NCBI RefSeq assembly: GCF_025200715.1
Contig: NZ_CP104144.1
Coordinates: forward strand, 248,001-312,000
From: Rhizobium sullae
GTDB taxonomy: Bacteria > Pseudomonadota > Alphaproteobacteria > Rhizobiales > Rhizobiaceae
Length of the DNA stretch: 64,000 nt
Direction of reading: 5' to 3'
Both the position numbers and the translations under genes were made by a program. How positions within the stretch are numbered: position 1 is the stretch's first letter; each line of letters opens with the position of its first letter. Below are positions 19,722-34,662 of this stretch, piece by piece. Below the pieces are notes generated by a model, which saw only the letters and a program-made list of their open reading frames with translations, made no database searches and was not told the origin of the DNA.

Positions 19722-20657
19722 ATGAAAAGTTGCTGCCTCCCAACCGAAATATCGAAGAGATCGGACGCCGGTTCGCCGACGCAGGCGCCAGTGCATCGAG
19801 CTCTATCTCCGGTCTCTGTCGATACGGCACAGATTCCAGGCGGGCTCGTGCTGGTCGGGACAGACAGGCCGTACCTCCCGGCGGACGGGGAAGGTCCGGT
19901 CCGCAAGCTCCGGCTCAAGCCGTTCCTGCTCGCGAAGGCAGCCGTTAGCAATTCGCAGTTCGCTGATTTCATTGCGGCCACGGGTTACATCACCGAGGCC
20001 GAGCAGCTGGGCTGGTCCTATGTGTTTTACCAGCATGTCGATCCTAAGGTTGCGACGTCAGGCGTCGTCGGCGCTGAATGGTGGCGGCGTGTCGAGGGCG
20101 CCTGCTGGCATGCGCCGTTCGGACCTGGTTCCGATGTCGAGGCATTCAAAGATCATCCTGTCGTTCACATCTCATGGCAGGACGCGGTTCAATTTGCCAC
20201 TTGGGTGGGCGGACGGCTTCCAAGCGAAGCCGAATGGGAACATGCAGCGAAGGGCGGTCTCAGTGGCGCGATTTATCCCTGGGGCGACCGCCACCCGGAA
20301 GATGGCTTCACCCCGTGTAATATCTGGCAGGGCCGGTTTCCGGAGTTCGACAGCGGGGTGGACGGTTACAAGGGGCTTGCACCCTCCGTCTCGTTCGAGC
20401 CGAACGGATTTGGACTGTACAACATGGCGGGAAACTGCTGGGAATGGACTGCGGACGTGTTTCGCGTGAGGTCCTTGCGCAAAACGTCGCAATCCCTCAA
20501 CGCCATGGCACGGCAGGAAAGCCGCCGCGCCCTCAAAGGCGGCTCATACCTCTGCCACGCGTCCTACTGCCACCGGTACCGTATCGCTGCTCGCATGGGC
20601 AGCACCGGCGATTCGACCACCGGGCATATTGGCTTCCGCGTCGCTTTCGACATTTGA
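19722..20657 (+). CDS. Formylglycine-generating enzyme (sulfatase-activating)
   Basis: The 311 residues match the FGE/SUMF1 family. An ISWQDAVQFATWVGGRLPSEAEWEHAA block sits mid-protein, with YNMAGNCWEWTADVF later. The C-terminal active site GGSYLCHASYCHRYR carries both copper-binding cysteines (C278 and C283), which distinguishes true FGE from the many FGE-like domain proteins. It oxidises the cysteine of CxPxR sulfatases to formylglycine in the cytosol. It opens an operon that ends with exactly such a sulfatase. The ribosome-binding site is weak; the first ~35 residues are poorly conserved and the real start could lie slightly downstream. Confidence 0.9.
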   Translation: MKSCCLPTEISKRSDAGSPTQAPVHRALSPVSVDTAQIPGGLVLVGTDRPYLPADGEGPVRKLRLKPFLLAKAAVSNSQFADFIAATGYITEAEQLGWSYVFYQHVDPKVATSGVVGAEWWRRVEGACWHAPFGPGSDVEAFKDHPVVHISWQDAVQFATWVGGRLPSEAEWEHAAKGGLSGAIYPWGDRHPEDGFTPCNIWQGRFPEFDSGVDGYKGLAPSVSFEPNGFGLYNMAGNCWEWTADVFRVRSLRKTSQSLNAMARQESRRALKGGSYLCHASYCHRYRIAARMGSTGDSTTGHIGFRVAFDI

Positions 20658-20782
20658 TCTGGACTTCGGTTGACTTGGAAGGCTGCATAAGTTAATCCAT
20701 TAACTTGCCGGTTTCATCGGGCCTTGAGGAGGGTTCCCGTGGAGAATACGCCGGCTTGTCGGATGTCTCTGGGAGAAGACAC

Positions 20783-22027
20783 ATGAAACTTGCCAATCGA
20801 TTGAGCCGTTGCATTGCAGTTGCGCTATGCCTGTATGGCGTTGGAGGCGCTGCGCGGGCCGAAACCCTTAAAGTCTATTGGAACGCCGGCCATGCGTATC
20901 AAGCATATGCCGACGTCATCAAGAAATTCGAGGCGGACCACCCCGGCTGGACGGTCGAATGGGGACGCTTCCAATGGCCGGATCTGCGCACCAAGCTGGT
21001 GGCCGATCTTTCGGTCGGAAATGCGCCGGACCTCGTTGCCGAGCCTGGCGGCTGGGTGCCGGAATTCGGCTTGCAGGGCATGATTACGCCGCTCAATGAC
21101 TTTGTCGCAAAAGACGGCAAAGAGATGGGCTATCCGCAGGACTGGCAGGATTTCTCCGTCGAGCGCAACACGATCGACGGCAAGTACTACGGCATTCAGT
21201 TGCACCTGACCTGTGCGGCATTGGTCTATAACGTGGACATGTTGAAGGAAGCCGGCTTCGACAAGCCGCCGGCCAATTGGCAAGAATTCCGCGAGGTCGC
21301 GATCGCGACCAGCAAGCGCGGCAGGTTCGGCTTTGCTCCCAACCAAGTGGCGACGTACTACACACCATGGATCTACCAGAATGGCGGCGCCTTATACGAT
21401 GCCGCGGTCAAAAAGGTCGCTTTCGACAGCCCGCAGTCCGCACAGGCAATCCAGTTCGTGGCCGACCTCATTCATAAGGATAAAGCGGCACCCTTGCCAG
21501 TGGCCGGAGCCGACTACGAAGGCCCGCAGAAGCTGTTTACAGCCGGCCGGGCGGCGATGATCCTGACCGGCCCATGGGACGTTAGCCCGATCAAGACAGG
21601 CAATCCCAAGCTGAACTGGGACGTCGCACCGTCGCTGACGGAAAAGCAGCAGGCGACGATGGCAGGTGGCGTGAGCCTTTTCATCCCCAAGACGGCCAAG
21701 CATCCCGCCGAAGCGTGGGACCTACTCAAGAGGTTCGTTGCGCTTGACACCGAACTTGCAGCCTCGTTGCCCAACGGCATGACCATGCCGCGCAAATCCT
21801 GGGCAGCCGATCCAAAGGTCAAGGCAGATCCCGTGCTCGGCAAATTCAGCCAATGCCTGCCTTACGCCGTCGATTCAGCCGCCAAGCTTGCGCTCACGGG
21901 CAAGAATGCTGTCGTACAGGATCTCTTCAAGACGGCCGTGCAGGACATCCTTTACAACGACAGGCCTGCGCAGGAGGTTCTCTCCGACTATGCGGCACGA
22001 GCCAACGCGGCACTCGCCAACAAGTAA
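20783..22027 (+). CDS. Sugar-type ABC solute-binding protein (CUT1 family 1)
   Basis: The ATG at 20783 (GGGAGAAG nine bases upstream) gives a signal peptide (MKLANRLSRCIAVALCLYGV, cleavage after ARA) and a 414-residue protein. The mature part begins ETLKVYWNAGHAYQAYADVI and has the family-1 extracellular binding protein pattern, including WTVEWGRFQWPDLRTKL and FTAGRAAMILTGPWDV. Such proteins bind mono- or oligosaccharides and derivatives. Together with the two permeases downstream it should import the compound that is desulfated by the sulfatase. Confidence 0.92.
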   Translation: MKLANRLSRCIAVALCLYGVGGAARAETLKVYWNAGHAYQAYADVIKKFEADHPGWTVEWGRFQWPDLRTKLVADLSVGNAPDLVAEPGGWVPEFGLQGMITPLNDFVAKDGKEMGYPQDWQDFSVERNTIDGKYYGIQLHLTCAALVYNVDMLKEAGFDKPPANWQEFREVAIATSKRGRFGFAPNQVATYYTPWIYQNGGALYDAAVKKVAFDSPQSAQAIQFVADLIHKDKAAPLPVAGADYEGPQKLFTAGRAAMILTGPWDVSPIKTGNPKLNWDVAPSLTEKQQATMAGGVSLFIPKTAKHPAEAWDLLKRFVALDTELAASLPNGMTMPRKSWAADPKVKADPVLGKFSQCLPYAVDSAAKLALTGKNAVVQDLFKTAVQDILYNDRPAQEVLSDYAARANAALANK

Positions 22028-22102
22028 CGAAGCAGCAGCGGCCGTGCGTTTAGCACCGTCGCTGCCGCCCCCGAGATCAATGTTCTGACGGAGGTCGTCG
22101 GC

Positions 22103-22990
22103 ATGAGGCTGCCTAACAGTCGCAAGGCCCGGGAGGCCGGATTCGCCTATATCGTCCTGCTGCCCGCCATCGCATATTTTCTGGTCTATTTCTTCTATCC
22201 GATCGTGGTGGAACTCTGGGCCAGTTTCTTTCGAGGTCAGCCGCTCATTGGCCAATCCGAATTTGCAGGCTTTGACAATTATCGTCAGGCCCTGATGGAC
22301 TCCCGTGTACGCGCCGCCTTCGGCCGCACCGTGGTGTTTGCGACACTCGGAACGGTTTTCACCCTGGTGCCAGCCCTTTGTCTGGCGGCCATTCTCAGCG
22401 GCCCGATCAAGGCGGCCACGACGATTCGTGCCATCATCTTCTTTCCGTATATCATCTCGTTCGTGATCGTTGCCCTGATGTGGAAGAGCCTGCTCGATCC
22501 CTATACCGGCATACTAAACGCGCTGCTCTCCTATCTGGACCTTCCCACCCAGAATTGGCTGAGCACACCATCGACGGCCCTTCCGACAATCGTCGCGATC
22601 ACCGTATGGAAGGACATCGGCTACGCGATGCTGATCTACATTGCCGCCATCCAGGGTATTCCCAAGGATCTCTACGAAGCCGCCGAGGTCGATGGCGCCT
22701 CGCCCGCGCAACGGTTCAGGCGAATAACAATTCCCTTGCTGATGCCGACCACACTCTTTCTTGCGGTCATCAGCACGATCGGTCACCTTCAAGATCTATC
22801 CGCGCCCTATCTGCTGACGGGCGGCGGTCCGGCCGAGGCGACCCGCCTTTACGCATTGCACGTCTACGAGGCTGCGTTCCTGGAGCTCAACATCGGCTAC
22901 GCGTCGGCGCTCTCGTTCCTGATGTTCGTTGCGATCCTGGTGATAACGTTCCTTCAATTCCGTTTCCTGAACCGGGAGGTGGTCTATTGA
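22103..22990 (+). CDS. Sugar-type ABC transporter permease (MalF-like)
   Basis: This 295-residue, six-segment membrane protein has the cytoplasmic coupling loop with the EAA motif (EAAEVDGASPAQRFRRITIP). GGAGG precedes the ATG. Its stop codon overlaps the start of the next permease gene (TGATG at 22988-22992). It pairs with that protein as the heterodimeric channel of a carbohydrate (CUT1) importer. The operon contains no ATPase, so a shared ATPase such as the one encoded at 30794 may energise it. Confidence 0.92.
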   Translation: MRLPNSRKAREAGFAYIVLLPAIAYFLVYFFYPIVVELWASFFRGQPLIGQSEFAGFDNYRQALMDSRVRAAFGRTVVFATLGTVFTLVPALCLAAILSGPIKAATTIRAIIFFPYIISFVIVALMWKSLLDPYTGILNALLSYLDLPTQNWLSTPSTALPTIVAITVWKDIGYAMLIYIAAIQGIPKDLYEAAEVDGASPAQRFRRITIPLLMPTTLFLAVISTIGHLQDLSAPYLLTGGGPAEATRLYALHVYEAAFLELNIGYASALSFLMFVAILVITFLQFRFLNREVVY

Positions 22991-23826
22991 TGACGGCCCG
23001 CTTCTCCCACCGCACGCCCCTTGCCACCTTTGCCGCCTATGGCACGCTCAGCTTCTTCGTCATCCTTGCGCTCTTTCCATTCTTTTACATGATCTCGCTG
23101 TCTCTGCAGAGCGACGCCGACCTCTCCAGCGGCGTGCCCGTGCTGGTTCCCTCAGTGCTGCAGTTCTCCAACTACGTGGCGATCTGGGAAAAGGCACCGT
23201 TTGCCCGGTTCATTCTCAACAGTTTCATCGTCGCCGGCGGCATAACTGCGCTCCACCTCTTCTTCGACCCGCTCGTCGGCTATGTATTTGCAAAGCTGGA
23301 GTTTTTTGGAAAGCGGGCTATGTTTGCCGCGCTGCTCTCCACGCTGATGCTGCCATTCTTTATCCGAATGATCCCGCTTTACATCCTGACCGCAAAAATG
23401 GGCTGGTTGAACACCTACCAGGGCCTCATCATGCCGTTCGCCATGAGCGCTTACGGAATTTTCCTGATGCGCCAGTTTATCCGTCCGATTCCGGACGACC
23501 TGCTTGATGCCGCGCGTCTCGACGGGGCGTCGGAATGGCGCATCTATCGATCGGTTGTCTTGCCGCAGCTTGGCCCGCCGATGGCAACGCTTGGCTTGCT
23601 GACCTTCGTGTTCCAGTTCAACGAATTCCTGTGGCCCCTGGTGGTCGTAAGCTCCGTCGAGATGCGGCCGATTACGACAGGGCTGACTTTGTTCAATTCG
23701 GAGTTCTTCACGCAATGGAATTTGACGGCAACGGGCGGGGTGATCCTGTTTCTCCCGAGCTTCCTGCTGTTTGTCTTCATGCAACGCTATTTCGTGCAGT
23801 CGGTGATGACGTCCGGAATGAAATGA
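22990..23826 (+). CDS. Sugar-type ABC transporter permease (MalG-like)
   Basis: A 278-residue six-segment permease starting at the ATG that overlaps the previous stop codon. The EAA loop (DAARLDGASEWRIYRSVVLP) lies between the fourth and fifth segments. It forms the second half of the sugar-type importer. A longer frame open upstream overlaps the MalF-like gene and is not coding. The next gene, the sulfatase, starts 18 bp later. Confidence 0.92.
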   Translation: MTARFSHRTPLATFAAYGTLSFFVILALFPFFYMISLSLQSDADLSSGVPVLVPSVLQFSNYVAIWEKAPFARFILNSFIVAGGITALHLFFDPLVGYVFAKLEFFGKRAMFAALLSTLMLPFFIRMIPLYILTAKMGWLNTYQGLIMPFAMSAYGIFLMRQFIRPIPDDLLDAARLDGASEWRIYRSVVLPQLGPPMATLGLLTFVFQFNEFLWPLVVVSSVEMRPITTGLTLFNSEFFTQWNLTATGGVILFLPSFLLFVFMQRYFVQSVMTSGMK

Positions 23827-23844
23827 GCCATGGAAAGGTAGAGA

Positions 23845-25128
23845 ATGAGTGCTTCTCCCAATGTCATCGTCTTTTTTACCGACCAGCAACGCTGGGATAC
23901 GGTCGGGCTTCACGGTCACCCGTTGAAGCTGACGCCGAATTTCGACCGCCTTGCCGAAGCCGGGATGTTCGTGCCGAATTCCTTCACCTGCCAGCCGGTG
24001 TGCGGACCCGCGCGCTCGGCGCTGCAGACCGGCCTTTATCCTACGACGACAGGATGCTACCGCAACAGCATCCCCTTGCCGAGCGGCCAAAAGACGCTCG
24101 CGCACTGGTTCCGGGAAGGAGGCTACGAGACCGGCTATATCGGCAAATGGCATCTTTCAGGCAGTGAGCCGGTTCCTGCATCTGAACGCGGCGGCTACGA
24201 GTATTGGCTGGCGTCCAACATTTTGGAATTCACGTCATATGCCTACGATACAGCGGTGTTCGATGGCGAAGGCGAGCGCGTCAAGCTTCCCGGCTACCGT
24301 GTCGACGCCCTGACCGACGCGGCGATCCGGTTTGTGGCGGCAGACCATGAAAAACCATACTTTCTTTTCCTATCCTTCATCGAGCCGCACCATCAGAACG
24401 AGTTCGACAACTATCCTGCGCCTGTCGGCTACGAGGAGCGGATTCGAAAACAAATGGAATTGCCGCCTGATCTTGCGGCCCTTGGCGGATCCTCGGATGA
24501 GCACTATCCGGGCTATCTCGGAATGATCCAGCGCCTGGACGAGGCGCTTGGGCGACTGACCGATGCACTGACGAGCCTCGGCCAGCTCGACAACACGATC
24601 ATTCTCTTCACCTCGGACCACGGCTGCCATTTCAAGACCCGCAACAACGAATACAAGCGTTCTTGCCACGAGGCGTCGATACGCGTGCCGACCTTCTTTC
24701 ACGGTCCCGGATTCATGGGAGGTGGAAACCATCAGGGCCTGGTCAGCCTGATCGATCTACCGCCGACGCTTCTTGCTGCTGCCGGATTGAAGGTGCCTGC
24801 TGCGATGCAGGGAAGGTCGATCCTCGATGAACGGCCCGGTGGCGAAGAAGACGTGCTTGTGCAGGTCAGCGAACATCATGTGGGTAGGGCACTGCGGACG
24901 CGAAGATGGAAATATGAAGTCACAGCACCAGATCTCAGCGGTTGGGACGACATGGACAGCGCCAACTATGTCGAGACCCATCTCTATGACCTAGAAAACG
25001 ACCCTTACGAGTTGGAGAATCTCTGTGGCCGGGATGGCTATGAGGATATAAGAAGGCGGCTGCGCGAGCGGCTGTTGGAGCGGATAGTCGCCGCCGGCGA
25101 GAAATGCCCGAGGATTACGGCGACCTGA
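23845..25128 (+). CDS. Type I sulfatase (formylglycine-dependent)
   Basis: The 427-residue protein belongs to the alkaline-phosphatase-like S1 sulfatases. Metal and substrate residues include the N-terminal FFTDQQRWDTVG, the C-x-P-x-R activation site C53-G-P-A-R57 followed by SALQTG, the GYIGKWHL block, and the second metal site FTSDHGCHF. There is no signal peptide, so it acts in the cytosol on an imported sulfate ester. A maturation enzyme is encoded in the same operon, an unusually self-sufficient arrangement. The substrate is probably a sulfated sugar or similar, inferred from the CUT1-type importer. Choline sulfatase is less likely given that transporter class. Confidence 0.93.
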   Translation: MSASPNVIVFFTDQQRWDTVGLHGHPLKLTPNFDRLAEAGMFVPNSFTCQPVCGPARSALQTGLYPTTTGCYRNSIPLPSGQKTLAHWFREGGYETGYIGKWHLSGSEPVPASERGGYEYWLASNILEFTSYAYDTAVFDGEGERVKLPGYRVDALTDAAIRFVAADHEKPYFLFLSFIEPHHQNEFDNYPAPVGYEERIRKQMELPPDLAALGGSSDEHYPGYLGMIQRLDEALGRLTDALTSLGQLDNTIILFTSDHGCHFKTRNNEYKRSCHEASIRVPTFFHGPGFMGGGNHQGLVSLIDLPPTLLAAAGLKVPAAMQGRSILDERPGGEEDVLVQVSEHHVGRALRTRRWKYEVTAPDLSGWDDMDSANYVETHLYDLENDPYELENLCGRDGYEDIRRRLRERLLERIVAAGEKCPRITAT

Positions 25129-26175
25129 ATGAGCAGTCAAGATATACATGACGGGGAACGGCCGGCGACGAGAAGCGAGCGATCCGTAACCGTTGCCGAC
25201 GTTGCTCGGCTTGCCGACGTATCCACCGCCGCTGTCTCCTTCTATTTCAGCAACCGCCAGGAACATCTGAAGCGCGTTGGGACGGAAGCACGCGAGCGCA
25301 TCCGTGCCGCAGTCGAGGAACTGGGCTACGTCCAGAACAAAACCGCTCGCCACTTGCGTCGCCAACAGAGCGAACGCATTTGCATCGTCCTGCCGAAGCT
25401 TGGCATACCCTATGCCGACAAGATGGTTCACGATCTCGGATCGGTGGCTGTGCAGCAGGGGTTGCTGCCGATTGTGTTAACTGGCTCCACGATCGGTGCA
25501 GTCCAGAAAATCCTGGGCGAGGTTGAAGCAGGTCTGGCCGATGGCGTAATCGCTGAAGCCGGTTTCCTCACCGAGGAGCAGGTCGGGCAGGTATTTGCGC
25601 ACTTCAACCGACCCTGTCTTGTCATCCATCCCACAGCACGACCTCGATCCTATTCTGTCCTTAACAACGGTCTGATCGACGCGCTTGAGTGTGCGTTCGA
25701 TGATCTTCTGCACAAGGGACATCGCGATTTCGTCTACATTCAAAATGCCGAAATGCCGCATAATCCGCGAATTTCTGCGCTGAAGGCGCGTGCGGTGACT
25801 GCTGGTCTGTCTGTGCTGATCACCACAATGGCGGGAGCGGATGCTCGTGAGGCTACTGCTGGGTGCGCGCGACAGATCGCTGAAATGGCAAAGCGGCCGA
25901 CAGCGATCCTGCTTGACTCCGACTATACGGCCGTGACGCTGATCGAGGAGTTTTCCCGCCTCGGCATTCGAGTGCCAAGCGACATTGCCGTCCTAGGCTG
26001 CGGCAACGCCGAGGAAGGCTTTTACTGCAATCCCCGCTTGACGACGATCGGTCCGGAATGGCTTTCGCTACTTGAAGCTGGCCAGCATCTCATCGAGAGT
26101 CTCGCCGCCCAGAAGCCCGTTGAGGCGAAGGCATTCTATACGCCCTGGAGGTTCATTCCGCGAGAGAGCGCGTGA
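25129..26175 (+). CDS. LacI family transcriptional regulator
   Basis: The 348 residues start with a LacI helix-turn-helix (TVADVARLADVSTAAVSFYF) preceded by ~20 extra residues, then a periplasmic-binding-protein-like effector domain ending in YTPWRFIPRES. Its ATG follows the sulfatase stop directly, so it is co-translated. It most likely represses this operon until the imported compound appears. The paired TTGCGCAA sites upstream of the FGE gene are candidate operators. Confidence 0.9.
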   Translation: MSSQDIHDGERPATRSERSVTVADVARLADVSTAAVSFYFSNRQEHLKRVGTEARERIRAAVEELGYVQNKTARHLRRQQSERICIVLPKLGIPYADKMVHDLGSVAVQQGLLPIVLTGSTIGAVQKILGEVEAGLADGVIAEAGFLTEEQVGQVFAHFNRPCLVIHPTARPRSYSVLNNGLIDALECAFDDLLHKGHRDFVYIQNAEMPHNPRISALKARAVTAGLSVLITTMAGADAREATAGCARQIAEMAKRPTAILLDSDYTAVTLIEEFSRLGIRVPSDIAVLGCGNAEEGFYCNPRLTTIGPEWLSLLEAGQHLIESLAAQKPVEAKAFYTPWRFIPRESA

Positions 26176-26240
26176 CAGCGGTGTTTTGGGGGATGCCGCG
26201 CCGCGAACTACGGATCGCCACTGCGTGATCCTACCGAATA

Positions 26241-26267
26241 ATCGCCGCCCTCACGGAGAGCGGCGAT
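26241..26267. terminator. Bidirectional hairpin between convergent genes
   Basis: ATCGCCGC (26241-26248) and GCGGCGAT (26260-26267) form a perfect stem. The CTC/GAG bases inside the loop can extend it after one mismatch. It lies between the end of the LacI gene and the end of the leftward membrane-protein gene. T-rich bases on each side are modest, so it is a probable rather than certain terminator. Confidence 0.5.
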
Positions 26268-26284
26268 AAGTATCTTCTTGGACG

Positions 26285-26635
26285 TTAGGCCGGAAGTTGG
26301 AAGATCCAGTTTGCAATCAGCACAATCGCCAGACCGCCTGCAAGGGCGACATAGGGCAGAATGCCGGCCTTTTTCGTGCCAAGATCCTGGCCTGTCAGGC
26401 CCAGATCGTCCATCGCTCCTGCAGGGAATTTTCCGCCGTCCCGCACATAATGGCGATAGGCAAAGACCGGGAGGATGACGGCGGCGAAGGCGAAGCCGAC
26501 CCAAAGTGCGTTGGCATAGCCCCAGACCTTAGCGCCGGCACCCAGGAAGAGGGCGTTGACGAAGGCGAGAACCGTGTTGAGGCCCATCAGCCAGCTCGGC
26601 GCCTTCCAGGGACGTTCGACATGGCCGGAATCCAT
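26285..26635 (-). CDS. Small membrane protein of unknown function
   Basis: From the ATG at 26633-26635 (AGGA seven bases upstream) the protein has 116 residues. There are two close hydrophobic segments in the N-terminal half (LMGLNTVLAFVNALFLGAGA and ALWVGFAFAAVILPVFAY) and one at the C-terminus (ILPYVALAGGLAIVLIANWI). A basic RHYVRDGGKFP loop lies in between. An upstream in-frame start would run through the operators and is rejected. The family is not recognised. It shares the tandem LacI operators with the divergent regulator, so it is probably co-regulated with the sugar importer operon and may assist uptake or signalling. Confidence 0.7.
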   Translation of the reverse strand: MDSGHVERPWKAPSWLMGLNTVLAFVNALFLGAGAKVWGYANALWVGFAFAAVILPVFAYRHYVRDGGKFPAGAMDDLGLTGQDLGTKKAGILPYVALAGGLAIVLIANWIFQLPA

Positions 26636-26654
26636 GCGATGTCCTGTTCCTGTT

Positions 26655-26690
26655 CCAAAACGTTTTGGCTTGATCTCCAAAACGTTTTGG
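26655..26690. promoter_or_regulatory. Two tandem perfect LacI operators
   Basis: CCAAAACGTTTTGG occurs at 26655-26668 and again at 26677-26690. Both are perfect 14-bp palindromes with a central CG. Their centres are 22 bp apart, two helical turns. They lie 20 bp before the membrane-protein start and 35 bp before the LacI start, exactly where a LacI-family repressor would control both. Confidence 0.85.
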
Positions 26691-26724: not shown

Positions 26725-27735
26725 GTGTCTAATCTGAAACAGCTGGCCCAGTCGCTCGGCCTGTCGATCACCACGGTATCGCGTGCACTCGACGGCTATC
26801 CGGACGTATCGCCGGCAACCCGCGAACGCGTGCGGGAAGCGGCAGCGCTTACCGGGTATCGTCCCAATGCCTCTGCACGACGCCTGCGCAAACAGCGCGC
26901 TGAACTTGTCGCCGTCACACTCCCGAGTGATCCGGGGCACATCGGCCCGCCGCACTTTCTCGATATGCTCTCCGGCTGCGCCGAACATCTGGCCACAGCC
27001 GGCCTCAATCTTGTGATTGCCCCCGTGCCGCGGGGCGAGAGCGAGCTCGACATGTGCCGCCGTTTCGTCGACGGGCAAAGGGTTGACGCCATGCTGCTCG
27101 TGCGCACGAAGCGCAGGGACGAGCGCGTGGAATTCCTGCAGGCGCGGAGCATTCCGTTCGTCACCAACGGCCGGACCGAGTCTGTCGTGCCGCATCCCTA
27201 TCTCGACGGCGACGGTTTTGCCGGATTTCAAGCGGCAAGCCTTCGTTTTCATGCCGAGGGTCATCGCCGGATCGCTCATATCGCCGGCCCGCAGGACTAT
27301 TACTTTGCCCATGTCCGCCGCATGGGCTGGCAGGCAGCCATGGAAGAAAGCGGCCTTTCAACGGAACTTTGCGCCGAAGGCGCCCCGACCGAGCAGGGCG
27401 GATACCTGGCGGCGCTGGAATTGCTGCGCCATCCCCGTCGGCCAACCGCGATCGTCTGCGCGACAGATGAAATGGCGATCGGTGCTTTGCGGGCGCTTCG
27501 CGAAATTAAGGGCGGGGAGACGATCAGCATCGTCGGCCACGACGATCTGCCAACGGGCGCTTTTGCCAGCCCGCCGCTCTCCACTATGCGCATGGCAGGC
27601 GAGAACCTGGGCCGCAGCTTTGCCTCGCTGCTGCTTCGCGCCATTGCAGGCGAGCCTTCGGAAGAACTTCAGGAACTGCACCCGATCGAGTTCGTCGACC
27701 GCGAGAGCCATCGGCGTGCGCCGCCAAATGCATAG
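26725..27735 (+). CDS. LacI family transcriptional regulator (AglR-like)
   Basis: This 336-residue regulator begins at a GTG with GGGAGG upstream. The helix-turn-helix reads LKQLAQSLGLSITTVSRALDGY, with the hinge-helix RPNASARRLRKQRAE. The effector domain ends at a FVDRESHR motif typical of sugar-responsive LacI proteins. It is the first gene of a rightward set with binding protein, two permeases, ATPase and hydrolase, 24 bp apart from the first. The gene order resembles the alpha-glucoside agl operon of rhizobia. It probably binds the two tandem palindromes just upstream and autoregulates. Confidence 0.93.
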   Translation: MSNLKQLAQSLGLSITTVSRALDGYPDVSPATRERVREAAALTGYRPNASARRLRKQRAELVAVTLPSDPGHIGPPHFLDMLSGCAEHLATAGLNLVIAPVPRGESELDMCRRFVDGQRVDAMLLVRTKRRDERVEFLQARSIPFVTNGRTESVVPHPYLDGDGFAGFQAASLRFHAEGHRRIAHIAGPQDYYFAHVRRMGWQAAMEESGLSTELCAEGAPTEQGGYLAALELLRHPRRPTAIVCATDEMAIGALRALREIKGGETISIVGHDDLPTGAFASPPLSTMRMAGENLGRSFASLLLRAIAGEPSEELQELHPIEFVDRESHRRAPPNA

Positions 27736-27759
27736 AGAAGAACCAAAGAGGAGGAGAAA

Positions 27760-29037
27760 ATGAAACATCTAGCGTCACTTGGAATTCTGGCATCGACCGT
27801 CCTTTTGGCCGCAACGCCGGTGCTTGCCGACACTGTATTCTTGTCCACGCAGCTTCGCCCGATCGCAGAAGCGACCGTGGTTCGCGAAGAGTTGCTCAAG
27901 GGCGTTCAGAACCCGGTCGACTACGTGGTCGAGGAGCCGCCGCAATTTGCCGTCCGCATGGAGGCCGAGCGCCAGGCCGGAGCGCACACGATCAGCCTGG
28001 TCGGCGCTTTGCATGGCGAACTGTCGCCGCTTGCCGACAAGGACGGACTTGAGCCGCTCGACGATGTCGCCAAGGCGCTCGCCTCGAAAGGCATGCCGCA
28101 GCCTCTGCTCGATCTCGGCAAGCTCGGCAAGTCCAGCCAGCAATATATCCCTTGGATGCAGGCGACCTATGTCATGGCCGCCAGGAAGGATGCCCTGCAA
28201 TACCTTCCCCAGGGCGCTGATGTGAACAAGCTCACCTACGATCAACTGATCGAATGGGGCAAGAAGATGCAGGAAGCAACCGGCCAGCCGCAGATCGGCT
28301 TTCCAGCCGGGCCAAAGGGACTGATGTCCCGCTTCTTCCAGGGCTACTTCTATCCGTCTTTCACGGGCGGCGTGGTGCGGCCGTTCCAAAATGCCGATGC
28401 TGCAGCCGGCTGGGAAAAGCTGAAGGAGCTCTGGGCGGTCGTCAATCCGAACTCCACCAATTACGACTTCATGCAGGAGCCGCTGCTTGCCGGCGAAGTC
28501 ATGGTCGCCTGGGATCACGTTGCCCGCCTCAAGGAGGCGATTTCCTCCGAGCCTGACCAGTATGTCGTCTTCCCGGCACCAGCTGGACCGAAAGGCCGTG
28601 GCTACATGCCGGTTGTCGCCGGTCTCGCCGTTCCGAAAGGCGCGCCCGACAAGGCTGGCGCATTCGCCGTCATCGAACACCTGACGACGCTCGACACCCA
28701 ATTGCTCACCGCGCAGAAGGTCGGCTTCTTCCCGACGCTCGATGCCAAGCTGCCCACCGACATCGATCCCGGCGTCGGCCTGCTGGCGGCTGCCGTCAAC
28801 GCGACCCAGAGCTCGCCGGACGCGCTGATCTCGCTGCTTCCGGTCGGCCTTGGCGACAAGGGCGGCGAGTTCAACAAGGTCTATATGGACAGCTTTCAGC
28901 GCATCATCCTGCAGAACGAAGCCGTCGGCGACGTCCTGAAGGCGCAAGGAGCAACGCTTGCGAAGCTGATGAGCGACACCAAAGCCCCGTGCTGGGCGCC
29001 GGACGCCAAGAGCGACGGAGCCTGCCCTGTCGAATGA
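27760..29037 (+). CDS. Sugar-type ABC solute-binding protein
   Basis: The protein has 425 residues with a Sec signal peptide (MKHLASLGILASTVLLAATP, cleavage after VLA). The mature part resembles family-1 sugar-binding proteins: FAVRMEAERQAG early, then GFPAGPKGLMSRFFQGY and the ligand-cleft aromatic residues. The very clear AGGAGGAG lies six bases before the ATG. A DTKAPCWAPD tail with two cysteines could form a disulfide. It should bind the glycoside handled by the hydrolase at the end of the operon. Confidence 0.92.
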   Translation: MKHLASLGILASTVLLAATPVLADTVFLSTQLRPIAEATVVREELLKGVQNPVDYVVEEPPQFAVRMEAERQAGAHTISLVGALHGELSPLADKDGLEPLDDVAKALASKGMPQPLLDLGKLGKSSQQYIPWMQATYVMAARKDALQYLPQGADVNKLTYDQLIEWGKKMQEATGQPQIGFPAGPKGLMSRFFQGYFYPSFTGGVVRPFQNADAAAGWEKLKELWAVVNPNSTNYDFMQEPLLAGEVMVAWDHVARLKEAISSEPDQYVVFPAPAGPKGRGYMPVVAGLAVPKGAPDKAGAFAVIEHLTTLDTQLLTAQKVGFFPTLDAKLPTDIDPGVGLLAAAVNATQSSPDALISLLPVGLGDKGGEFNKVYMDSFQRIILQNEAVGDVLKAQGATLAKLMSDTKAPCWAPDAKSDGACPVE

Positions 29038-29098
29038 GCCTCTGGCCCGGACGCCCTGTGTCCGGGCCTCTTCCTGCAAAGTCGCGAGGCGAAAGCCA

Positions 29099-29950
29099 AT
29101 GCCGAACAACCGCCCCTGGATCCCCTATCTGCTGATCTTGCCCTCGGTGGCGTTCCTGGCGCTGCTCTTCGTCGTGCCGCTCGTGCAGACGATCTGGCTT
29201 GCCGTCTCCGACAATGGCATGCCGTCGCCTGCCAATGTCCAGCGTATGATGGGCGACCTCAATTTCACGCGCTCGGTTCAAAACACGTTTCTTCTGACGC
29301 TTGCCGTTGTGCCGGTGCAGATCGTCATTGCGCTCGCCATGGGGACGATGGTCGCGAAAGTGGCGGCCGGTCGGGAAACGATCCTATGGATCTGGACCAT
29401 TCCGCTTGGCATTTCCGATCTTGCCGCCGGTCTCGTCTGGCTGTCGATCCTGCAAAACAGCGGCTATCTCAATTCGTTCCTCTACGGCCTCGGCATTATC
29501 GAACGGCAGGCGAGCTGGCTTTCCTACCAGACGCCTTTCGCACTTTTTCTCGGCATAGCCGCCGCAGAGATATGGCGGGGAACGGCGATTGTGATGGTCA
29601 TCATCGTTGCCGGCCTCAATCAGGTGCCGAAGGAATACCGGGAAGCGGCAGAGATCTTCGGCGCGGGTCCCTGGACGCGCTTTTACCGCATCACCCTGCC
29701 ACTCATCCGGCCCGCGCTGCAGTCAGCGCTCATCCTGCGTACCGTATTGGCCTTCGAGGTATTCGCCGTCGTCTATGCCCTTGGCGGCCGCAATTTTCCG
29801 GTGCTGGTTGGCGAGGCCTACAACTGGCAGAACCAGAACCAGAACTATGGCGTTGCCGCAGCTTACGCGGTTCTCATCATGCTGATCTCGCTTGCAGCCA
29901 CCATGTTCTATCTGAAGGCGATCAGGGTCGATCCGGAGCGTCTTCCATGA
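29099..29950 (+). CDS. Sugar-type ABC transporter permease (MalF-like)
   Basis: A 283-residue, six-segment inner-membrane protein. The cytoplasmic EAA loop reads EYREAAEIFGAGPWTRFYRI. It pairs with the next gene product as a CUT1 importer channel. The last codons overlap the ATG of the next permease (29947-29950). The gene lies 61 bp behind the binding-protein gene. Confidence 0.92.
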   Translation: MPNNRPWIPYLLILPSVAFLALLFVVPLVQTIWLAVSDNGMPSPANVQRMMGDLNFTRSVQNTFLLTLAVVPVQIVIALAMGTMVAKVAAGRETILWIWTIPLGISDLAAGLVWLSILQNSGYLNSFLYGLGIIERQASWLSYQTPFALFLGIAAAEIWRGTAIVMVIIVAGLNQVPKEYREAAEIFGAGPWTRFYRITLPLIRPALQSALILRTVLAFEVFAVVYALGGRNFPVLVGEAYNWQNQNQNYGVAAAYAVLIMLISLAATMFYLKAIRVDPERLP

Positions 29951-30780
29951 GCACGACGACCGGCACCGCAAGCTTCGTCTCGTCCCGCCGCATTCTGCTG
30001 TGGAGCGGGGTCGCCGTCCTCTGTGCCTGGGTTCTGGTGCCGATCTATCTGATCGCGCTCGGCGCCTTCGGCGGACGCAGCGCCGTCTACCTCTGGCCGA
30101 AGACCGGCCTGCCGACCGGCCTTTCCTTCGAGCCCTTCCTGCTTTTCCTGAGGACGGAAGGAGTTCTCGGCTCCTTCCTGAACTCTCTTGGAGCCGCGGC
30201 GATCACGGTTGCCCTTTCCCTGCTTCTCGGAGCGCCCGCAGGCTATGCGCTGGCACGCTATAATTTTCACGGCAAGGATTCCTTCCGGCTCATGGTTCTT
30301 TTGACCCGCGCCTTTCCTTTGGCAATCCTTGCGCTTCCGCTCACCGTTTCCTTCATCCGTCTCGGCCTCTACGACACGGTCACTGGCGTCGGTCTCGTCC
30401 ATACCGTCCTTGCCCTGCCTTTCGCGGTTCTTGTGACACAAGGCATCTTTCTCGGCGTTCCGAGAGAGCTCGAGGAAGCGGCATGGGTCTTCGGCTGCTC
30501 GCGTATCCAGGCGTTCTTCAAGATTGTCGCTCCCCTTGCCCTTCCGGGTATCGCAGCGACCGCCGTCTTTGCCTTCGTCATCTCCTGGAATGAGGTCTTT
30601 GCCGCTTCCGTGCTCACCGTCCGAAACCGGACGCTGACGGCTTACCTGCTGACCGTGTTGGCGGAAAGCCCGATGCATTACCGCTTTGCAGGCGGCCTCA
30701 TGCTCATCCTGCCATCCGTGGTCTTCATCTTCGCGGTCAGGCGCTACCTCTTCGCGATCTGGGGCATTTCATCCAAGTAA
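29947..30780 (+). CDS. Sugar-type ABC transporter permease (MalG-like)
   Basis: A 277-residue six-segment permease whose ATG overlaps the previous stop (ATGA). The EAA loop is ELEEAAWVFGCSRIQAFFKI. A larger frame open upstream is the out-of-frame shadow of the preceding gene. It is the second channel subunit of the importer. The ATPase gene follows 13 bp later. Confidence 0.92.
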   Translation: MSTTTGTASFVSSRRILLWSGVAVLCAWVLVPIYLIALGAFGGRSAVYLWPKTGLPTGLSFEPFLLFLRTEGVLGSFLNSLGAAAITVALSLLLGAPAGYALARYNFHGKDSFRLMVLLTRAFPLAILALPLTVSFIRLGLYDTVTGVGLVHTVLALPFAVLVTQGIFLGVPRELEEAAWVFGCSRIQAFFKIVAPLALPGIAATAVFAFVISWNEVFAASVLTVRNRTLTAYLLTVLAESPMHYRFAGGLMLILPSVVFIFAVRRYLFAIWGISSK

Positions 30781-30793
30781 CGGGAACAGTTTC

Positions 30794-31852
<1,059 letters not shown>

Positions 31853-31873
31853 CGAATATCTGGAGTAAATGGC

Positions 31874-33157
31874 ATGACGAAATACATCGATGAAGCCAAG
31901 GCGATTTTGGCGGCGAACGATCGTGGTGGCTACACCGTTCCGACCGACCGGCTTTATCCCTTTCAGTGGAACTGGGATTCGGCCTTCGTAGCCATGGGGT
32001 TTGCCGCCTACGACATCGATCGCGCCTATCGTGAGCTCGAACGCCTGGCCGAGGGACAATGGGCCGACGGCATGATCCCGCATATCGTATTTCATCAGCC
32101 GAGCGACAGCTATTTCCCAGGGCCTGACGTCTGGCGCACGGACCATGTCATCCCAACCTCCGGTATCACGCAGCCGCCGGTCTTCGCGATGGCTCTTCGC
32201 CAGATTTACGAAACGGCGGTCGCAACGGGCTCCGTCGCAGAGGAGAGAACCCTGGCGCTCTACGAAACTGCCCTGAAGTGGCACCGGTGGTGGTACCGTG
32301 CGCGTGATCCGGAAGGCACCGGTCTTGTCGCTCTATTGCATCCCTGGGAAAGCGGCAGCGACAACTCACCCGCCTGGGATATCGCGCTTGCCCGCGTGCC
32401 GACCGTCACACAAACCGTAGTCGTTCGAAAGGACACAGGCCATGTGGACCCAGCGATGCGCCCCCGCGACGAGGACTATAACCGATTCATCCACCTTCTT
32501 GACACCTATGCGGACTGCGGATGGGATCCGGCTAGGCAATGGCAAAGAGCCGAGTTCAAGATCGCGGATGTCCAGACCAGCGCGATCCTCCTCAAGGCCG
32601 GCGAAGACCTGCAATATCTTGCCGGCGTGCTCGGGCGCGGAGACGAAGGCGACGAGATCGCAGCGCTGAACGAGCGCACGCGGCAGGCCCTGAAGGCGCA
32701 GTGGCGTCCTCATTTTTCGCGTTTCGTCTCGCGCGATCTGCTTGCCAGCCAGGATGTCGTCGCAGCCACGCAGGCCGGCTTCATTCCTCTTCTTGCGCTC
32801 GATCTTGATGAGGCGACAGCCGAAGCTGCAGGGGCGGAAATGCGAAAATGGTGCAAGGGTATGCAAGTCGCCTTCCCGACGACCGAGCCCGGATCCGCAA
32901 GTTTTGAGGCCAAGCGCTATTGGCGCGGCCCCGCCTGGGCGATCATCAACTGGCTCCTGATCAAGGGATTACATCGTAACGGCCAGGCAGGATTTGCAGA
33001 AGAATTGCGCCGCTCGACGATCAGCGCGATCGAGAAGGAAGGCTTTGCCGAGTATTTCGACCCGAAAACCGGCGAAGGATGCGGTGGGCTCGGATTCTCC
33101 TGGACGGCAGCGGCTTACATCGCGCTTGAAAGGGCGGACAGTTCCGCAATTGTATAG
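31874..33157 (+). CDS. GH63-like glycoside hydrolase (mannosyl/glucosylglycerate hydrolase type)
   Basis: The 427-residue cytosolic protein has an (alpha/alpha)6-barrel signature: the LYPFQWNWDSAFVAMGF motif near the N-terminus, SGITQPPVFAMA, the LHPWESGSDNSPAWD block, and the C-terminal RYWRGPAWAIINWLL. These match the compact GH63 group that hydrolyses mannosylglycerate, glucosylglycerate and similar small glycosides, rather than the large eukaryotic glucosidase I. GGAG precedes the ATG. As the last gene of a sugar-type importer operon, it should cleave the imported glycoside. The exact substrate is not proven. Confidence 0.8.
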   Translation: MTKYIDEAKAILAANDRGGYTVPTDRLYPFQWNWDSAFVAMGFAAYDIDRAYRELERLAEGQWADGMIPHIVFHQPSDSYFPGPDVWRTDHVIPTSGITQPPVFAMALRQIYETAVATGSVAEERTLALYETALKWHRWWYRARDPEGTGLVALLHPWESGSDNSPAWDIALARVPTVTQTVVVRKDTGHVDPAMRPRDEDYNRFIHLLDTYADCGWDPARQWQRAEFKIADVQTSAILLKAGEDLQYLAGVLGRGDEGDEIAALNERTRQALKAQWRPHFSRFVSRDLLASQDVVAATQAGFIPLLALDLDEATAEAAGAEMRKWCKGMQVAFPTTEPGSASFEAKRYWRGPAWAIINWLLIKGLHRNGQAGFAEELRRSTISAIEKEGFAEYFDPKTGEGCGGLGFSWTAAAYIALERADSSAIV

Positions 33158-33427: not shown

Positions 33428-33620
33428 CATCTTCCCCGCAGTGAAGGAGGGGATTTTCAGGGGCGGCTTTAGGCCGCCCTTTCGAGTCCTCGGCTCCCGC
33501 CGGAAGTCTCCGACGCCGCCGATGGCCGTGTTCCGGCCAGGAGTATGTTGACCGCCGCGTTGACGTCGGCGTGGTCTGCGTGTCCGCAGGAGAGGCAGAG
33601 GAACTTCGCTTGGTTTTCGC
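33428..33620 (-). ncRNA. Probable omega-RNA at the tnpB 3' end
   Basis: TnpB nucleases use an RNA made from the 3' end of their own gene and the element's right end. Here the tnpB stop codon lies inside a strong hairpin (GGGCGGC-TTTAG-GCCGCCC, 33461-33479). A second hairpin follows at 33433-33453, with the right end near GTTAAC (33421-33428). The guide segment would be the flanking bases just below 33428. The 5' boundary is a guess. RNA data would be decisive. Confidence 0.5.
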
Positions 33621-34662
33621 GGTTTGCCTTGTCCCTCGACCCACACTTTGAGCAGGTCACGGACGTGTATCTCGGATCGACCTTCACGACGGTTCCGCCG
33701 AGGAAGGCCAGCTTGTAAGTCAGCAACAGCTCGAAGCGGTACCACGCCGCCGCGAGGATCGAGCGATTGAGGCCAGCCTTCCGGGCGACGTTCTTGCCCG
33801 GCTCTTCGACGGTCCCTTTCGCCGAGGCGCTCATGTTCCTGATCTTCAGGTCCTCGAGGACGGCCGTCCCGAAGCGCTTCGCGATGCGCGTCGTCGTCAC
33901 GTGTTGCCAGTGCAGCCGTTGGCGCGCCGCCTTCGCCGCGATGCGCGCGGCGTGGCGTCTCGCCTTGGCCTGGCGCTTCGAACGGCTCTTGCGCCGTGCG
34001 GCTGTCCGCTGCCACTGCTTGTGGCGGTCGTCGAGGTTGGACGGCGGCATCGCGTGCATCTCGCCGGTGGAGAGCGCCAAGGTGTTGACGATGCCGCGGT
34101 CGATGCCGACGGGCGGATTGTCGTTTTCCGGCGTCTCGTGTTCGAACGCGCAGGAAAAGGCGATGTGCCATCCGTTGGCCGCGCGCACGACCGTGACGTT
34201 GCCGACCGCGCCCCGGATCGGGCGGGTGTAGCGGAACTTGACGGCGCCGATTTTCGGGAGCCGCACCCGCGCCCACTTCGCGTTCAGCACCTCGATGGCG
34301 CCGACGCGGCTCGACGGGAAGCGCAACGCGTCGTTGACGAACTTGCGCCGCGGCTTCGGGTAGCCCGCCCGTCCGGCAAAGAAATTCCGGAACGCCTGGT
34401 CGAGGTCACGCAGCGCCTGTTGCTGCGCGTCGATCGGGCATTGTGCCACCCACGGCACCTCGGCGCGGATCGCCGTCAGCTCGCGCGCCTGGGACGGGTA
34501 GGAGATGGTCTTTCCCTCGGCCTTCTTGAACTGCCGCCAGAAGGAGGATCGCTGCTCAAGGGCGATGTTGTAGACGAGGCGCACGACGCCGCAGCAGCGG
34601 GCGAAGAATTCCGCCGTCTGCTGGTCAGCGTAAATCCTGTACTTGTACGCGCGGTTCGGCAT
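33469..34662 (-). CDS. tnpB: TnpB, RNA-guided nuclease of IS605 family
   Basis: The 397-residue protein has the complete TnpB layout. The N-terminal helical/WED region starts PNRAYKYRIYADQQT. The RuvC catalytic residues are D188 (VGIDRGIVNTLAL), E270 (VLEDLKIRNMS) and D366 (HADVNAAVNIL). The zinc finger cysteines are C337/C340 and C356/C359. All are intact, so the nuclease may be functional. It cuts DNA next to a transposon-associated motif, guided by RNA from the element's right end, which preserves the element at the donor site. The ATG is at 34660-34662, divergent from the tnpA remnant by a few dozen bases. Confidence 0.93.
   Translation of the reverse strand: MPNRAYKYRIYADQQTAEFFARCCGVVRLVYNIALEQRSSFWRQFKKAEGKTISYPSQARELTAIRAEVPWVAQCPIDAQQQALRDLDQAFRNFFAGRAGYPKPRRKFVNDALRFPSSRVGAIEVLNAKWARVRLPKIGAVKFRYTRPIRGAVGNVTVVRAANGWHIAFSCAFEHETPENDNPPVGIDRGIVNTLALSTGEMHAMPPSNLDDRHKQWQRTAARRKSRSKRQAKARRHAARIAAKAARQRLHWQHVTTTRIAKRFGTAVLEDLKIRNMSASAKGTVEEPGKNVARKAGLNRSILAAAWYRFELLLTYKLAFLGGTVVKVDPRYTSVTCSKCGSRDKANRENQAKFLCLSCGHADHADVNAAVNILLAGTRPSAASETSGGSRGLERAA

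Follow-up and report, generated by a model that had tools for sequence, protein, structure and literature searches.

A putative two-unit sulfatase and CUT1 importer module in Rhizobium sullae with its own predicted LacI operator and no ATPase gene

The window, a 64,000-nucleotide stretch of the Rhizobium sullae genome, carries six colinear genes (19722-26175; Table 1) that probably form two transcription units rather than one operon, and it is quite likely that together they allow one small sulfated sugar to be imported under LacI control and desulfated in the cytosol, with the importer energized in trans. A preliminary description had read these genes as one self-sufficient operon comprising a true formylglycine-generating enzyme (FGE), a CUT1-type binding protein (SBP) and two permeases, a cytosolic sulfatase, and a LacI regulator but lacking an ATPase; the gene inventory is confirmed here in full. 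In the arrangement proposed, unit 1 would be the FGE gene, which would have a promoter of its own and not answer to the module's LacI; in the cytosol its product would convert Cys53 of the sulfatase to formylglycine by oxidation. In unit 2 (SBP, permease, permease, sulfatase, and lacI), the encoded LacI would act as repressor of the unit from a single operator lying over the -10 region of the SBP promoter, and the substrate or its product would serve as inducer. A single small sulfated sugar or glycoside would pass from the SBP to the two permeases, ATP would be hydrolyzed by a CUT1 ATPase that is encoded elsewhere and hence should serve more than one importer, and the sulfatase would remove the sulfate inside the cell, leaving the free sugar to general catabolism.

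Table 1. Features of the sulfatase-importer module and of the operon that follows it (window coordinates)
Feature	Position	Strand	Basis or remark
FGE	19722-20657	+	PF03781 and closest PDB relative 6s07; probably its own transcription unit
SBP-operon promoter-like element	20670-20697	+	TTGACT, 16 nt, TTAATC; read by eye
Predicted LacI operator AAGTTAATCCATTAACTT	20689-20706		Perfect palindrome; genome-unique, kept in relatives
CUT1-type periplasmic SBP (SBP_bac_1)	20783-22027	+	Signal sequence by eye
CUT1-type permease 1, UgpA/MalF-like	22103-22990	+	Profile matches
CUT1-type permease 2, UgpE/MalG-like	22990-23826	+	Profile matches
S1-type sulfatase, cytosolic	23845-25128	+	C53-G-P-A-R57; no signal peptide by eye
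LacI-family regulator of the SBP-sulfatase operon	25129-26175	+	Profile matches; operator co-occurrence
Two CCAAAACGTTTTGG palindromes	26655-26690		Belong to next operon, outside module
MalK-like ATPase of next operon	30794-31852	+	Outside module on the evidence

The probable division into two units rests on a palindrome, AAGTTAATCCATTAACTT, that lies between the FGE and SBP genes and overlaps the putative SBP promoter, whose second hexamer (TTAATC) falls within it. This sequence occurs at a single place in the 7.6 Mb genome (up to one mismatch allowed). Among 17 copies of the operon that were compared, its core is present 5' of the SBP gene in 13, which are exactly the 13 that have a LacI of at least 40% identity, and it is missing from all four copies without such a LacI; the Fluviibacterium copy (L029) has an EbgR-like LacI downstream that is not close to the window protein. 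Both sequence marks of a local repressor are thus present, an HTH domain in the regulator (PF00356, 40.6 bits; cut-off 27) and a palindrome at the promoter it would control, and the co-occurrence agrees with the earlier proposal of a dedicated LacI, which would bind the putative operator. In every one of the nine copies with an upstream FGE gene the operator sits between that gene and the SBP gene, and by eye TTGACA/T lies 15-16 nt upstream of the TTAAT core in eight of nine aligned operons (8 nt in L022). A generic promoter and terminator scan did not call the SBP promoter, and its sites were no more numerous than in shuffled sequences. An operator and promoter at this point in all nine FGE-bearing copies, the operator being unique in the genome, do not agree with the single operon of the preliminary description. 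FGE is therefore probably transcribed separately, outside LacI control; read-through from it is possible, since only about 104-147 bp separate the FGE and SBP genes. We also considered a conserved element 5' of FGE and rejected it because in an alignment of six genomes none extended beyond the two nearest relatives. Within unit 2, the ATG at 20783 is taken as the SBP start as it fits the aligned starts of relatives (the mechanical open reading frame begins earlier, at TTG 20705), and the stop of permease 1 and the start of permease 2 overlap as ATGA.

The FGE matches PF03781 with 244.3 bits (cut-off 23.3) over residues 34-308 and profile positions 4-254 of 255, so the domain is full-length, and its best relatives in the PDB are solved formylglycine-generating enzymes (6s07, E 6.6e-93). 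Both cysteines, which we take to be copper ligands, are present in YLCHASYCHRYR and align with FLCHESYCNRYR of 6s07; on this profile match and alignment it is a true FGE, as had been thought. The term "self-sufficient" is not appropriate, however, as a second FGE gene that also has both cysteines lies at C2:1735400, and no FGE was found beside the transporter and sulfatase genes in the stretch examined for eight of the 17 copies (Devosia, Microvirga, two Martelella, Fluviibacterium, Nonomuraea, a Rhizobiaceae MAG, and Rhizobium sp. BK418). Relatives of the sulfatase (E<=1e-100) occur in 10 of 148 genomes of the genus, the window's included, and six of the ten have an adjacent FGE gene, in accord with the suggested rarity of such sets in rhizobia.

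The sulfatase matches PF00884 above its cut-off (201 bits, from residue 5) and has the alkaline-phosphatase-superfamily fold, which places it in family S1. Its C-x-P-x-R motif is CGPAR (residues 53-57), in which C53, P55, and R57 are invariant in 22 aligned sequences (window protein included), and no signal peptide is evident by eye, as expected of the cytosolic enzyme originally described. It scores 143.5 bits against the choline sulfatase model (NCBIfam TIGR03417), far below the cut-off of 433.45, and so differs from the rhizobial choline sulfatase BetC (6fny, 6g5z, and 7pth). The sulfatase family is widespread, with at least 585 stretches confirmed, of which the best 80 were kept.

The importer combines a binding protein of the SBP_bac_1 family with two different BPD_transp_1 permeases of the UgpA/UgpE type; the UgpA and UgpE models are the best permease matches, yet the scores are below their equivalog cut-offs. 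The importer and sulfatase presumably function as a pair. No MalK-like ATPase gene was found between 19722 and 26175, so the operon is without the dedicated ATPase of a CUT1 system. Approximately 47 of the 56 CUT1-sized SBPs of the genome, but not the window SBP, have an ATPase within 6 kb (an approximate figure, since the PF01547 list behind it misses at least one SBP, that beside the ATPase at C2:1747789). Among the 17 copies, whose gene content was read by tblastn and which include several close relatives and so do not represent 17 independent events, an ATPase gene lies in the operon in three (L029, L192, and L193; Martelella and Fluviibacterium) and is lacking in 14; the preliminary description's own counter-case, that relatives would always have an adjacent dedicated ATPase, is thus not what is found. 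At L112/L020 the ~20 kb examined yielded no MalK-like ATPase, yet the operon is intact, so there the ATPase must come from elsewhere if the importer works.

With Nonomuraea as root, a tree built from 15 of these 17 copies (L111 and L190, both close to L189, were omitted) places the ATPase-bearing copies in one nested clade (support 100), and the ATPase-less state thus looks ancestral, a polarity that hangs on one distant outgroup in a tree with two inner nodes of support 66 and 74. All FGE-bearing copies fall inside the Rhizobium clade (support 100); BK418, which lacks an adjacent FGE, is nested in it as well. The scarcity of in-operon ATPase genes and the contrast with the other SBPs of the genome might also be expected if the importer were dead or decaying through ATPase loss and the operon a relic, but this is very improbable, given that the SBP, permeases, sulfatase, and LacI are open frames conserved in Rhizobium, Devosia, and Microvirga, that the operator is conserved, and that the rooted tree makes the ATPase-less state likelier to be older than the ATPase-bearing clade. 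We infer instead that the importer shares an ATPase in trans. Tentatively, the transporter and sulfatase genes may have been inherited without an ATPase in several alphaproteobacterial families and depend on promiscuous MsmX-like CUT1 ATPases, and an FGE outside the LacI switch could keep the maturase ready before its regulated client.

The first MalK-like ATPase gene downstream is 4.6 kb away, in a separate LacI-SBP-permease-permease-ATPase-hydrolase operon, and had been suggested as the lender. A single six-gene operon whose importer is driven by this ATPase is improbable. The ATPase operon does come next both in the window and in R. gallicum (G603/L109), and the Rhizobium copies L019, L111, L189, L190, and L195 have a CUT1 operon with an ATPase, though a different one, shortly downstream. 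On the other hand, an orthologue of the 30794 gene was not found in three of seven operon-bearing genomes (the best-scoring match is 47-48% identical, 54% at most over part), the 82% identical orthologue in G609 is on a different contig from the operon, and in an R. sullae relative (G715, L018) the next operon is on the same contig with about 10 kb of extra DNA between the two. By similarity to the bona fide operon ATPases of Martelella and Fluviibacterium, 30794 ranks only 39-42 among 66 ATPase loci of its own genome, and the operator between FGE and SBP argues against a single six-gene unit. With such patchy orthologues and low rank the 30794 ATPase was rejected as natural partner, and it is a poor lender candidate. 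An operon ATPase relocated within the window's genome was likewise rejected: none of the 66 loci is an obvious orthologue, the best sharing about 54-56% identity with the Martelella and Fluviibacterium ATPases, whereas the latter share 68% with each other. The loci closest to those operon ATPases are C2:895467, C1:3791238, C2:2634408, and C1:3108293.

Sharing of this kind has precedent. In the accessible part of one account, MsmX of Bacillus subtilis and MsmK of Streptococcus are multitask ATPases that energize CUT1 importers whose operons, like that in the window, have no ATPase gene; there the sharing is demonstrated in, and documented mainly for, Gram-positive bacteria, unlike the host of the window module, for which energizing in trans is a prediction (PMC7658222). 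The same text reports that a Synechocystis ATPase can replace MsmX and implies that Escherichia coli YcjV and MalK cannot (PMC7658222). Sets of transporter, sulfatase, maturase, and regulator genes are also already known, and the window module is a variant of them: the Bifidobacterium breve ats1 and ats2 glycosulfatase clusters, from another phylum, use an anaerobic sulfatase-maturing enzyme (anSME) according to the available text, in place of the oxygen-dependent FGE of the window (PMC9239261). The Streptobacillus moniliformis glycosaminoglycan (GAG) cluster, whose ABC importer Smon0120-0123 takes up unsaturated GAG disaccharides, sulfated ones included, resembles the window module in its SBP-dependent ABC importer and predicted cytosolic sulfatase. 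Unlike that module it also encodes a dedicated ATPase (Smon0120) as well as lyases and a glycoside hydrolase, and no maturase is among the genes named in the portion available (PMC5430744). Nearer in taxonomy, the acesulfame sulfatase of Shinella, also of the Rhizobiaceae, is FGly-dependent and matured by a genome-encoded FGE, a likeness drawn by description; unlike in the window, this FGE is on a different plasmid from the sulfatase, and the excerpt demonstrates no dedicated importer (PMC11500405). No paper on the window operon was found in the open-access literature, which is not proof of absence.

If the two-unit scheme with an ATPase supplied in trans is right, this legume symbiont has the means to use a specific sulfated sugar-like compound, and control by one operator and one inducer permits a direct screen for that inducer and, with it, for the substrate. 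It would also offer a clean genetic test of ATPase sharing by ABC importers in alphaproteobacteria, with the ATPase-less Rhizobium, Devosia, and Microvirga copies and the ATPase-bearing Martelella and Fluviibacterium copies as a natural comparison.

Deduction of the substrate from structure was rejected because the sulfatase and the SBP both have fold matches that are tied and spread over many specificities; the solved sulfatase relatives listed are 20-28% identical, with top Z scores of 42.2 (6hr5) and 41.8 (2qzu), and the match to sugar-sulfatase folds leaves the substrate unfixed. Regulators of the LacI family generally respond to sugars or their derivatives, the SBP and permeases are CUT1-type, most of the closest solved SBP relatives bind sugars, and sugar-sulfatase structures dominate the listed sulfatase fold matches. 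These features make it rather unlikely that a non-sugar sulfate ester is taken up, or that the module scavenges sulfur rather than supplying carbon, with an enzyme that is perhaps a broad phosphate/sulfate-ester hydrolase from the same superfamily. Such a reading would accommodate the additional matches of the sulfatase to SGSH_C and phosphodiesterase-type models, the aromatic-degradation genes (found along with TRAP-transport genes) that adjoin the Martelella copies, and the hydrolysis of acesulfame by a Rhizobiaceae FGly sulfatase, as partly described in PMC11500405.

Should the substrate be a sulfated sugar, a galactose-type sulfate is a possible but doubtful candidate, weakly suggested by neighboring genes, several of whose assignments score under family cut-offs. 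The Microvirga copy is flanked by three genes annotated as galactosidase-type, a galactonate dehydratase gene (728.6; cut-off 311) lies near the L019 copy and has a 90% identical homologue at L020, and two Rhizobium copies have aldose-epimerase-like, GMC, and SDR genes in their vicinity. Against galactose, the dehydratase cluster is close to the operon in only two Rhizobium genomes, and the GMC gene of that cluster (E<=1e-130) lies 1.5 Mb off in R. gallicum (G603) and was not found at that threshold in four of seven genomes, the window's among them. The R. leguminosarum/laguerreae copies have an FGGY kinase gene upstream. Neighbor clusters beyond the Alphaproteobacteria were likewise set aside; an enolase-superfamily dehydratase is present in 34 of 88 clustered loci, 23 of them from Poribacteria, a suggestive pattern at most.

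The module comprises six genes, all colinear, on a 2.76 Mb replicon of the 7.6 Mb genome, and the same operon is present in another R. sullae genome (G715, locus L118; 98–100% identity). As the preliminary description held, its first gene encodes a true aerobic formylglycine-generating enzyme (FGE): it matches PF03781 (244.3 bits), formylglycine-generating enzymes head the list of its PDB relatives (6s07, E 6.6e-93), and the alignment pairs both cysteines (YLCHASYCHRYR in the window, FLCHESYCNRYR in 6s07). Sulfatase residues C53, P55 and R57 are invariant in an alignment of 22 proteins, the window's among them. The importer was also correctly described as having no ATPase gene of its own; none was found among the six genes.

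Features of the module and its right flank (window coordinates)
Feature	Position	Strand	Remarks
Six-gene module	19722–26175		
Palindrome AAGTTAATCCATTAACTT	20689–20706		perfect
TTGAGGAGGG element	20724–20733		~17 nt past the palindrome, 50 nt ahead of the SBP start
CUT1-type binding protein (SBP) gene	ATG at 20783		start agrees with relatives' starts
Two UgpA/UgpE-like permease genes			after the SBP gene; stop of one overlaps start of the other
S1-type sulfatase gene			427 residues; motif C53-G-P-A-R57
LacI-family regulator gene			last of the six
Indel region	26177–26643		between the two operons
Two identical CCAAAACGTTTTGG palindromes	26655–26690		22 bp apart, just ahead of the next operon's lacI
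Next operon	26725–33157		LacI, SBP, two permeases, ATPase, glucosylglycerate-hydrolase-like GH
MalK-like ATPase gene	30794–31852		in the next operon
TnpB-like gene (IS200/IS605-type)	33469–34662	minus	by eye; just past the glucosylglycerate operon

The perfect palindrome lies between the FGE and SBP genes, where a TTGACT hexamer is followed after 16 nt by a TTAATC within the palindrome, which would therefore cover the −10 region. Seventeen copies of the operon were compared: the window's, L118, L109 (R. gallicum), L110, L111, L112, L019, L021 (Devosia), L022 (a Rhizobiaceae MAG), L029 (Fluviibacterium), L191 (Microvirga), L189, L190 and L195 (R. leguminosarum/laguerreae plasmids), L192 and L193 (Martelella), and L194 (Nonomuraea). 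Several are closely related to one another; duplicates (L018 of L118, L020 of L112, L102/L180 of L019), plasmid match H1 (which is L109) and plasmid match H6 (equal in score and identity to H7/L192) were left out. The core TTAATNNATTAA stands ahead of the SBP gene in 13 copies, exactly those whose LacI is at least 40% identical to the window's; in the other four the LacI is different or divergent (EbgR-like in L029, annotated in L192 and L193, where the window's LacI finds no match at E ≤ 1e-10, and 30% identical in L194). An FGE gene is directly upstream in nine of the 17, and in all nine the operator separates it from the SBP gene, which speaks against the earlier view of a single operon. 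With at most one mismatch the palindrome occurs at one place only in the whole genome (the reversed pattern, a control, gave one forward and two reverse matches), and among six aligned genomes no conserved element was found upstream of FGE beyond the closest relatives. From the operator position, the copy comparison, the single genomic site and the unconserved FGE upstream region, we conclude that LacI is the predicted local switch of the SBP, permease, sulfatase and lacI genes, and that FGE most likely forms a unit of its own. A generic promoter scan listed no SBP promoter between the FGE and SBP genes, and read-through from FGE into the SBP genes is possible.

The TTGAGGAGGG element, distinct from the ribosome site that serves the SBP itself, is kept at the same place in seven of nine aligned copies (the window, L118, L109–L112 and L019) and is absent from L021 and L022. 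In the window, by eye, it is followed by a short frame that opens with GTG and ends in a stop overlapping the start of the SBP gene; the conserved stretch is possibly a leader or mRNA element. The Martelella copies share an AT-rich repeat, TTTACTAAAGCTTACTA, upstream of their ATPase, and Fluviibacterium carries a comparable stretch; the repeat is perhaps the operator of the divergent regulator in the Martelella copies.

FGE adjoins the operon in Rhizobium-clade copies only. The Rhizobium sp. BK418 copy is nested in that clade (nesting support 74 and 49) and lacks an adjacent FGE; its genome encodes another FGE (48%) ~28 kb from the copy. This second region, L186 (G667:C4:189801-209700), also contains a CUT1 importer, an ATPase and two more sulfatase-like genes. 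In the window's genome, too, there is a second FGE that has both cysteines (C2:1735400), with three further sulfatases 10–20 kb from it, and in R. gallicum G603 the one FGE match at E ≤ 1e-30 is the module's own. "Dedicated" fits the position of the module's FGE; "self-sufficient" was too strong.

In the window's genome a MalK-like ATPase lies within 6 kb of 47 of 56 CUT1-sized binding-protein genes (PF01547 match, open frame ≥400; an approximate count, because one binding protein or more escaped the PF01547 search), and the module's is among the nine without one. An ATPase gene stands directly upstream of the SBP gene in three of the 17 copies (L029, L192, L193). In a tree of 15 copies (SBP, permeases and sulfatase; 1433 columns), these three form a single nested clade (support 100), around which the ATPase-less Microvirga, Devosia and Rhizobium copies branch; support is 99 for the node separating Microvirga, and 74 and 66 for those placing L022 and the ATPase clade. 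With a root on Nonomuraea, a single and distant outgroup, the tree is most simply read as one lineage acquiring an ATPase from an ancestral state without one. The Martelella and Fluviibacterium operon ATPases are 68% identical, and the best of 66 ATPase loci in the window's genome reaches ~54–56% identity to them.

When the 66 loci are ordered by their bit scores with each of the three operon ATPases, the next operon's ATPase, the lender proposed earlier, takes places 42, 41 and 39. Its orthologue (≥82%) occurs in four of seven operon-bearing Rhizobium genomes, in G609 on another contig, and was not found in the other three (best-scoring match 47–48%, none listed above 54%); in G715 ~15 kb separates the two operons (LacI to ATPase). 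Because of this rank, distribution and separation, it is unlikely to be the specific lender. Neighbouring operons' ATPases might play some role, since in seven of 17 copies (the window, L109, L019, L111, L189, L190, L195) a CUT1 operon that includes an ATPase gene follows shortly downstream, but it is not always the same operon. Excerpts of PMC7658222 describe multitask ATPases acting in trans as established in Gram-positive bacteria, report that a Synechocystis ATPase could stand in for MsmX, and imply that neither YcjV nor MalK of E. coli could. We infer that an ATPase may be shared in a rhizobium.

Sulfatase relatives occur in 10 of 148 genus genomes (E ≤ 1e-100) and in three of 199 drawn from the family (E ≤ 1e-60), own genome included; the binding protein was found in one of 397 drawn from the order, its own (E ≤ 1e-110; at most four candidates scored per genome), and in nine plasmid records (E ≤ 1e-100). 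The sulfatase family is common elsewhere (7989 proteins at E ≤ 1e-40 among 7997 candidates scored), the best 80 loci including Poribacteria, Paenibacillus, Chloroflexi and others at 61–68% identity. At 23 Poribacteria loci (between L030 and L086) an enolase-superfamily dehydratase lies shortly downstream of the same-family sulfatase; the one scanned, L049, falls below the galactonate-dehydratase cut-off.

Searches of open-access literature found no paper on the window's operon. Clusters of sulfatase, maturase, transporter and regulator are already known: an excerpt of PMC9239261 describes such a set in Bifidobacterium breve ats1/ats2, with an anSME-type maturase (anaerobic sulfatase-maturing enzyme). 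For Streptobacillus, excerpts of PMC5430744 describe an ABC importer and a sulfatase predicted to be cytosolic. The module here departs from these systems as so described in its oxygen-dependent FGE, which is predicted to stand beyond LacI control, and in its importer, which seems to have been inherited without an ATPase.

The indel region between the two operons carries ~10 kb of extra DNA in an R. sullae relative (L118/L185), and in R. gallicum (L109) ~160 unaligned bases replace the window's 467. The next operon's glucosylglycerate-hydrolase-like GH reaches 377.2 bits, below the cut-off of 550; this operon probably directs autoregulated uptake of a glucosylglycerate-like compound.
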